DNA from: Picrophilus oshimae DSM 9789
Lineage (GTDB): Archaea; Thermoplasmatota; Thermoplasmata; Thermoplasmatales; Thermoplasmataceae
Direction of reading: 5' to 3'
Assembly (NCBI RefSeq): GCF_900176435.1
Contig: NZ_FWYE01000001.1
Location: forward strand, 1 to 64,000
DNA length: 64,000 nt
Below, in pieces: positions 41,193 to 62,329 of this stretch. Position 1 is the stretch's first letter. The number at the start of each line of letters is the position of its first letter. Under the pieces are notes generated by a model, which searched no databases, had not been told where the DNA came from, and saw only the letters and a program-made list of their open reading frames with translations. The position numbers and the translations under genes were made by a program.

Positions 41193-42173
41193 ATGGAGGA
41201 AATCCAGGAAAAAAGCTGTGGTATAATACTTTATTCATATTATAATAATGAGGTAAGATACCTTTTCCTAGAAAGGGCCAGGGGATGGATAGACTTTCCA
41301 AAGGGACATGTTGAAAAATTTGAGAACTGCATCGAGGCTGCAAAACGTGAAACCTATGAGGAAACAGGAATAATGCCTGAATTTATAGATCCCTTCTTTA
41401 AACATGATATGTATTACAATGTAAAGAGATACAATATTGATGTTTTAAGGGTTATAACATTGTACATAGCATCTGTACCATATGATTCCGTTGTAAAGAT
41501 CTCTGAGGAGCACGTATCATACAGGTGGTTATCATACGAGGAGGCATGCAGGGAGCTTGAATTTGAAAATCAAAAAAGCATGCTTAAGTACGCCAATGAT
41601 TACATAAATAAAAAGAATCTTATGAATAAATTAAACTATGAATATTCAAGATTGCCAAGAAAGGATCATAACTGGAGTATGAGCAGAAATTATGTTCCCG
41701 GTGAGGGTAATTTAAATTCAGAGGTAATCTTTATAGGGCAGTCACCTGGATTCAACGAGGATGAAACAAGGAGGCCTTTTACCGGAAGGGCAGGTCTTTT
41801 TCTAAATTCCCTGCTAAAGATGGCGGGCCTTGAAAGGAACAGGGTTTATCTCACAAACGTGTTAAAATTCATGACGTATAAGAACAGACCACCAAACAAA
41901 CATGAGATAGAAAATGCAATGCCATACCTTTTAAAGGAGATAGATATAATAAGACCAAAGCTCATTGTATTAATGGGTTCCACCGCGGTAAACGCATTTC
42001 TTCCAAAGCATTCTGTGACCTTATATCATGGGAAGCTAATAAATGATAGGATGAAATTTTATATAACATTGCATCCTGCATCAGCACTGCATGTTCTGCA
42101 GAACATGCCGTTGATAGAGGAGGATTTCAGGAACCTTGGCATTATTATAAAGGATATGAACATAAGTTTTTAA
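41193..42173 (+). CDS. Fusion of NUDIX hydrolase and family 4-type uracil-DNA glycosylase lacking Fe-S cysteines
   Basis: 326 residues. Residues 1-135: NUDIX domain with a perfect box (G38 ... E44 ... REx-YEETGI at 52-60), closest to the bis(5'-nucleosyl)-tetraphosphatase type. Residues 150-326: UDG family 4-like, with motif GQSPGFNED at 182-190, GRPF-like RRPFTGRAG, and HPAS at 294-297. UDG4 normally binds a 4Fe-4S cluster with four Cys. Here the glycosylase domain has no Cys at all: F226 and A242 replace two ligands and the N-terminal CxxC is absent. It likely cleans the nucleotide pool and removes uracil, but activity without a cluster is uncertain. Confidence 0.85.
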   Translation: MEEIQEKSCGIILYSYYNNEVRYLFLERARGWIDFPKGHVEKFENCIEAAKRETYEETGIMPEFIDPFFKHDMYYNVKRYNIDVLRVITLYIASVPYDSVVKISEEHVSYRWLSYEEACRELEFENQKSMLKYANDYINKKNLMNKLNYEYSRLPRKDHNWSMSRNYVPGEGNLNSEVIFIGQSPGFNEDETRRPFTGRAGLFLNSLLKMAGLERNRVYLTNVLKFMTYKNRPPNKHEIENAMPYLLKEIDIIRPKLIVLMGSTAVNAFLPKHSVTLYHGKLINDRMKFYITLHPASALHVLQNMPLIEEDFRNLGIIIKDMNISF

Positions 42174-61681: not shown

Positions 61682-62329
61682 GTGAAGGATTTTGTTTCAA
61701 TTTATAAAAAGATAAAGATGCAGGCTCCTGAACATCACTTTGAATTCAGGGATCCATTCTGGGTTTTGATAACAACGATACTATCACAGAGGACAAAGGA
61801 TAATGTAACCGATGCATCCGCAAGGGCGCTTTACAATAGATATCATGATGCTGCTGGACTCGCTATGGCAAAGCCCGAGGACGTTAAAAAAATTATTAAA
61901 AATGTTGGATTCAGCAATGTAAAATCAAAAAGGGTTATAGACGCCGCGAAATACATATTAAAAAATTACAATGGTAATGTCCCGGATACCTATGAGGAAT
62001 TGATGAAGATAAAGGGCGTTGGCACAAAGACGGCAAATATAGTGCTAACACAATCATTTAACAAACCTGCTATACCGGTTGACACGCATGTGCACAGAAT
62101 AGTAAATAGAATAGGCTTTGTCAATACAAGAACACCAGAGGAGACAGAGACCGAGCTCAAAAAGATTATACCATTGGAATACCAAATAGAGTTCAATCCT
62201 GTTCTTGTTGAGTTTGGAAAAAATATATGCAAACCGGTATCACCAAAATGCGATATATGCCTTGTCAGGGATTGCTGTGATTATTATTCGAGAAAATCCA
62301 TAAATAATGTTAAAGCAAACAAAGCATGA
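61682..62329 (+). CDS. nth: Endonuclease III-type DNA glycosylase/AP lyase
   Basis: 215 residues, GTG start at 61682. The HhH motif with catalytic Lys is in IKGVGTKTANIVL, the Asp in PVDTHVHRI, and four Cys near the C-terminus (CKPVSPKCDICLVRDC) bind the 4Fe-4S cluster. It removes oxidised pyrimidines. Compare the nearby NUDIX-UDG fusion that lacks a cluster. AT-rich spacer to carB. Confidence 0.9.
   Translation: MKDFVSIYKKIKMQAPEHHFEFRDPFWVLITTILSQRTKDNVTDASARALYNRYHDAAGLAMAKPEDVKKIIKNVGFSNVKSKRVIDAAKYILKNYNGNVPDTYEELMKIKGVGTKTANIVLTQSFNKPAIPVDTHVHRIVNRIGFVNTRTPEETETELKKIIPLEYQIEFNPVLVEFGKNICKPVSPKCDICLVRDCCDYYSRKSINNVKANKA

Follow-up and report, generated by a model that had tools for sequence, protein, structure and literature searches.

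The described proteins closest to the one reported here are the family 4 uracil glycosylases (UDGa; T. thermophilus 1ui0/1ui1, S. tokodaii 4zbx), with their four cluster-ligating Cys residues and catalytic Glu, Phe, Asn, Lys, and His positions. According to the excerpts of the papers cited here and below, disruption of these Cys residues results in only a partial loss of family-4 activity, and the cluster is dispensable for the activity of families 4 and 5 (PMC5295032). UdgX, a UDG of family-4 descent with an altered motif A, is likewise a 4Fe-4S protein (PMC10359453). Its Asn91 and Lys94 are essential, with the N91A and K94A variants being inactive; its motif B Arg helps DNA binding, and the E52A (motif A Glu) and R184A (motif B Arg) substitutions cost about 1–2 orders of magnitude and about 4-fold, respectively (PMC10776899, PMC10359453). 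E. coli MUG is active with Lys at the position of this Asn (PMC10776899), and the family 5 UDGs (UDGb) carry the motifs GLAPA and HPSPLN. A glycosylase and a NUDIX fold are combined within one chain in MutY, in which a non-catalytic MutT-like domain lies C-terminal to an Fe-S HhH glycosylase (PMC9266487). The solved members of the NUDT2/CT771/aq_158 group of Ap4A hydrolases are stand-alone NUDIX proteins, and a Tyr of NUDT2 is a specificity residue for ApnA hydrolysis (PMC5389931). A search of the open-licence PMC literature found no paper on a NUDIX–UDG fusion such as the one considered below.

The analysed stretch of DNA (the window) comprises the first 64,000 nucleotides of a contig of Picrophilus oshimae DSM 9789, which has a genome of 1.53 Mb and belongs to a family that also includes Ferroplasma acidarmanus and Acidiplasma aeolicum. 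The relevant features of the window are as follows (position and strand, feature, and basis of assignment).

41193..42173, + strand: whole NUDIX–UDG fusion gene, 326 aa (ORF, Pfam and profile matches)
41193..41612, + strand: NUDIX domain resembling the Ap4A-hydrolase (NUDT2) type (PDB sequence and fold matches)
41304..41372, + strand: NUDIX box, residues 38–60 (conservation among aligned fusions)
41415..41417, + strand: Tyr75, aligned with human NUDT2 Tyr82 (87 in 1XSC) (alignment)
41565..41645, + strand: predicted single continuous inter-domain helix, residues 125–151 (AlphaFold2 model)
41619..42161, + strand: UDG domain, family-4 fold (1ui1 fold match, TIGR00758)
41652..41663, + strand: residues 154–157 (LPRK) at the family-4 ligand CxxC site (alignment)
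41736..41762, + strand: motif A GQSPGFNED, residues 182–190, including Glu189 at the catalytic position (alignment)
41856..41870, + strand: NVLKF, residues 222–226, with Asn222, Lys225, and Phe226 (third ligand site) (alignment)
41916..41918, + strand: Ala242, fourth ligand site (alignment)
42072..42092, + strand: motif B HPASALH, residues 294–300 (alignment)
61682-62329, + strand: endonuclease III with intact C-x6-C-x2-C-x5-C (ORF reading)

The fusion recognized in the initial sequence-only reading is real: Pfam places a NUDIX domain (residues 18–125) and a UDG domain (residues 169–301), both above the cut-off, in the single 326-aa ORF, the stop codon of which adjoins a convergent glutamyl-tRNA reductase gene. 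In the AlphaFold2 model (21-row alignment; pLDDT 93.8, pTM 0.90), the helix of residues 125–151 passes from the NUDIX domain directly into the UDG domain; this model is uninformative on the cluster cavity because it was built without a cluster and from an alignment including Fe-S homologs. In contrast to MutY, the glycosylase is an alpha/beta UDG, and the NUDIX domain is N-terminal with an intact box. The expected pattern G38-x5-E44-x7-R52-E53-x2-E56-E57-x-G59 is indeed complete, as had been claimed, and it is conserved among the aligned fusions (G38, E44, R52, E53, and E56 each in 70/71, E57 in 71/71).

The NUDIX half, which contains three Cys, resembles an Ap4A hydrolase of the NUDT2 type rather than MutT, as judged from sequence comparison and the predicted fold. 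Its best PDB sequence match is human NUDT2 (E 3.9e-16, against 0.065 for E. coli MutT), and the predicted model matches the C. elegans Ap4A hydrolase (1ktg) with Z 21.7 and an rmsd of 1.4 over 133 residues, and 4ijx with Z 21.1. The box, the specificity Tyr, the fold, and the best matches are thus common to the window protein and the NUDT2/CT771/aq_158 group, from which it differs in being joined to a UDG; the position of Tyr75 is occupied by Tyr in 64/71 aligned fusions. The initial proposal that the fusion couples pool cleaning to base excision seems improbable, also in the form of a MutT/dUTPase-like NUDIX half that acts on the dNTP pool, with the fusion channelling both processes. Such a reading could draw on the substrate ambiguity typical of NUDIX enzymes and on the M. 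smegmatis MutT1 fold, which also matches the model (Z 18.4). However, the Ap4A hydrolases are closer in both sequence and fold, the ApnA-specificity Tyr is retained, and the MutT profile TIGR00586 gives 20.8 bits, far below its cut-off of 97.9. Purifying selection acts on the NUDIX half (dN 0.029, dS 1.06 over 101 codons compared with a same-genus fragment in genome G095); the remainder of the ortholog in G095 was not found, the contig stopping after residue 101.

The UDG half belongs by fold and profile to family 4. The predicted model matches T. thermophilus UDG 1ui1 with Z 28.3 and an rmsd of 1.5 over 180 residues, and TIGR00758 (family 4 UDG) gives 130.7 bits, above the cut-off of 125.3; the archaeal equivalog profile NF040953 gives 135.1 bits, below its cut-off of 250, and TIGR03914 (UdgX) gives 98.4 bits against 189.95. 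UdgX-like cross-linking was considered and rejected: in the alignment to MsmUdgX, the window protein has neither the R-loop insertion nor an equivalent of His109. It also differs from family 5 in its motifs, GQSPG and HPASALH. Alignment with stand-alone family-4 UDGs confirmed that the whole glycosylase half is devoid of Cys and that the four ligand positions are occupied by L154, K157, F226, and A242. At the same time, all four Cys were present in 50 of 51 stand-alone family-4 UDGs in a 66-row alignment, which also included 12 fusions and three family-5-like rows, and the uracil-binding Asn was present in all 51. In the exception, a family-4-like UDG of genome G025 (L093:203-874, - strand) with a very long branch, His occupies the third ligand position.

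The glycosylase motifs, initially described as intact, are so in part. The window copy keeps the catalytic Glu, Phe, Asn, Lys, and His positions of family 4, among them Glu189, the uracil-binding Asn222, its partner Lys225, and His294, and the residues Glu189, Phe196, Asn231, Arg232, and His294 are invariant in 71/71 aligned fusions. However, motif A reads GQSPG instead of the canonical GE(A/G)PG, a Gln found in all 71 aligned fusions, and motif B ends in His300, a place occupied by Arg in 69/71. Considering the UdgX data on Asn91, Lys94, and the motif B Arg, the window copy would thus possess the uracil grip together with a weaker motif B.

The residue states were read in 72 fusions, 61 from one Micrarchaeota phylum and 11 from the order of the window genome; the 61 comprise the top 20 matches, 40 others taken from higher and lower sections of the match list, and L041, and are therefore a non-random draw from 113. 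No ortholog keeping the four Cys, for which a search had been suggested, was found: Cys occurs in 0/72 at the first and second ligand positions and in 0/72 at the third, which is Phe in 71/72 and Ile in L182. The fourth position is Cys in 69/72, the others having Ala (window copy), Thr (L111), and Ser (L182). The uracil-binding position is Ser in 69/72 and Asn in three (window copy, L158, L175), and the partner position is Gln in 70/72, with Lys solely in the window copy and Pro in L182, so the canonical Asn/Lys pair is found in the window protein alone. The fusion L182 (genome G135) is divergent: its pocket and ligand positions read Ser/Pro/Ile/Ser and its motif A has Glu, and it may be decaying. 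Additionally, 20 partial, UDG-only matches from the profile search of the Micrarchaeota phylum were read: eight stand alone and belong to the Ser/Gln type (L128 being cut by a contig end), ten, including two with Ser, keep all four Cys, and the remaining two are stand-alone intermediates with partly eroded ligands. These intermediates, L131:1311-1874 (no CxxC, Ser, Lys, Trp, Cys) and L133:1165-1734 (CxxC, Ser, Lys, Tyr, Gly), are placed just outside the fusion clade in the UDG tree.

The fusions were found in one Micrarchaeota phylum and in Picrophilus-like and Ferroplasma archaea. Among 117 genomes of the window's order, they occur in the genus of the window genome (two genomes) and in one other genus (eight genomes, full-length), UDG and NUDIX being separate ORFs elsewhere in the order. 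The scan of named genomes yielded one further full-length fusion, the Candidatus Micrarchaeota record L041, and the sample of 295 genomes of the Micrarchaeota phylum contained 113 full-length matches in 112 genomes (profile search, hand count), five of them flagged for an internal stop. A draw of 400 genomes of the window's class gave no additional fusion at E <= 1e-40, and none of 21 pattern matches on viral contigs was related to the fusion. The feature is thus real, conserved, and more widespread than initially recognized, and the NUDIX–UDG fusions apparently form a large, undescribed family, mainly in tiny symbiotic archaea.

In carrier genomes, we infer that the fusion family stands in for the ordinary family-4 UDG. 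At E <= 1e-25, family-4 matches were present in 138/295 genomes of the Micrarchaeota phylum, 137 of them with one match and G407 with two, both fusions; at this threshold, none of the 112 carriers (0/112) had a non-fused family-4 UDG alongside the fusion, and none was found above the cut-off in the fusion genomes of the window's order. By hand count of PF03167 matches, 22 of the 112 fusion genomes had one further UDG-superfamily gene and 90 had fusions alone, making the fusion a candidate for the sole UDG of many archaea, probably host-dependent ones. Note that 141/295 genomes of this phylum had no UDG match, so absence of a UDG is possible within it. In one genome of the phylum, a stand-alone four-Cys UDG and a downstream NUDIX gene on the same strand lie end to end (L138:1036-1710 and 1725-2201, + strand); of 82 loci with a stand-alone UDG ORF, one had a separate NUDIX ORF beside it, the flanks being unequal in length.

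Phylogenetic analysis united the 12 fusions in one branch with support of 100/99, the three family-5-like rows forming a separate branch. When 60 more fusions were added, the clade of fusions and eight stand-alone relatives had support of 98/92 in a UDG-only tree, in which the bootstrap had not settled and from which 32 loci (close copies, the family-5-like rows, and L093) were left out. In the full-length tree of 71 fusions, which omitted the divergent L182, the 11 fusions of the window's order grouped together (98/97), with the window copy as sister to the other ten (99/95). The UDG-only tree placed the window copy among the Micrarchaeota with weak support; a separate transfer from there was rejected as an explanation, because a single Thermoplasmatales clade was not rejected by the AU test (p 0.237) and is supported in the full-length tree. 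The NUDIX tree has stand-alone NUDIX genes from the genus of Acidiplasma aeolicum (L014, L017, L020) nested in the fusion NUDIX clade of the order (97/92), and this nesting suggests that the UDG half was lost in that genus; the genomes concerned have no family-4 UDG match. A search for UDG relics beside stand-alone NUDIX genes gave no convincing match (best E 0.051).

The window genome carries a second NUDIX–UDG fusion (L001:1453-2412, - strand; G000:C3), 43–45% identical to the window copy, as well as two further NUDIX genes. The uracil pocket of this paralog is of the Ser/Gln type, and its lone Cys is at the fourth ligand position. The N222, K225, and A242 of the window copy are known from one genome, and its branch was long (1.17 in the tree with 12 fusions); this length could reflect relaxed constraint on its UDG half, the selection test covering the first 101 codons. 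Since the neighbouring rows of the window copy in the tree carry Ser/Gln, its Asn/Lys pair is most simply seen, from these residue states, as a regain, and less simply as retention of an ancestral pair.

The absence of the cluster ligands had been interpreted in the sequence-only reading as a possible adaptation to acid or oxidising conditions, in an enzyme family that normally needs the cluster; the latter premise is not borne out by the merely partial loss of activity upon Cys disruption (PMC5295032). An adaptation of this kind to an acid or oxidising cytoplasm would fit the order of the window genome, which is among the most acidophilic known (PMC10354927), and the order Micrarchaeales, which is enriched at low pH (PMC12892359). 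However, the stand-alone family-4 UDGs of the acidophile family to which the window genome belongs keep all four Cys in 26/26 cases, and the window genome itself keeps four-Cys sets in endonuclease III, a second HhH glycosylase (L098), and a family-5-like UDG (L003). Acid adaptation was consequently rejected as the main cause and is considered very improbable. A genome-wide loss of Fe-S clusters was also rejected: PF10576, the endonuclease III Fe-S loop, had no match in the genome, yet this 17-position model had missed the intact C-x6-C-x2-C-x5-C loop of endonuclease III. As 0/72 fusions keep ligands 1–3 against the complete sets in 26/26 stand-alone UDGs of the same family, the loss, as far as testable, appears to be a property of the fusion lineage, following lineage and not habitat.

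On balance, we slightly favour the interpretation, drawn from sequence comparison and structural modelling, that the window protein is an Fe-S-independent UDG of family-4 descent tethered to an Ap4A-type hydrolase. The N-terminal half would be an Ap4A-type NUDIX hydrolase (Ap4A, diadenosine tetraphosphate), the last helix of which would continue into a C-terminal, family-4-descended UDG operating without the 4Fe-4S cluster. The cluster would have been lost on the stem of the fusion lineage, when the Cys-bearing N-terminal UDG segment may have turned into the helical connection with the NUDIX domain and Phe may have come to occupy the third ligand position. The fusion family would then have taken over from the ordinary family-4 UDG in carrier genomes, most members having Ser/Gln instead of the uracil-gripping Asn/Lys, which the window copy, one of two paralogs, has probably regained. 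Because it carries this pair, the window copy is predicted to be the paralog most likely to excise uracil. Against this interpretation stand the Gln for Glu in motif A and His300 for Arg, changes at the equivalent places in UdgX being costly, as well as the long branch of the window copy, the Ser at the uracil-binding position of most fusions, the rarity (1 of 82 loci) of neighbouring separate UDG and NUDIX ORFs, and the two further NUDIX genes of the genome.

A rather unlikely alternative is that the glycosylase half has lost its action on uracil and binds DNA damage or acts on another base, the NUDIX half being the working enzyme. The cluster is gone, motif A is changed, and Ser and Gln replace Asn and Lys in 69/72 and 70/72 fusions; given that the UdgX N91A and K94A variants are inactive (PMC10776899), the family as a whole may perform no uracil excision. 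On the other hand, a dead domain would not keep Glu189, Phe196, Asn231, Arg232, and His294 invariant in 71 fusions, the window copy has both Asn and Lys, E. coli MUG is active with Lys at the Asn position (PMC10776899), and the fusion is the sole UDG-superfamily match in 90/112 genomes.

Tentatively, and with less assurance than for the enzyme of the window itself, the fusions can be regarded as a branch of the UDG superfamily that is new and devoid of Fe-S, its members uniting a glycosylase and an Ap4A-cleaving NUDIX hydrolase in one rigid chain that is the sole UDG in most carrier Micrarchaeota sampled. The window copy would then be a natural revertant, its canonical uracil pocket regained on a scaffold lacking the cluster. 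A physiological link between Ap4A and repair finds its support in a reference title in PMC10148737, linking Ap4A synthesis to DNA damage, and in the end-to-end UDG and NUDIX genes of L138. If the proposed picture is true, uracil repair in such Micrarchaeota would depend on a protein with a second role in clearing the damage alarmone Ap4A, and the fusion would suggest that dinucleoside polyphosphates and base excision repair are connected. Moreover, this lineage of more than 100 members without the cluster, with the intermediates L131 and L133 still visible, would offer a natural experiment on why some UDGs carry a 4Fe-4S cluster.
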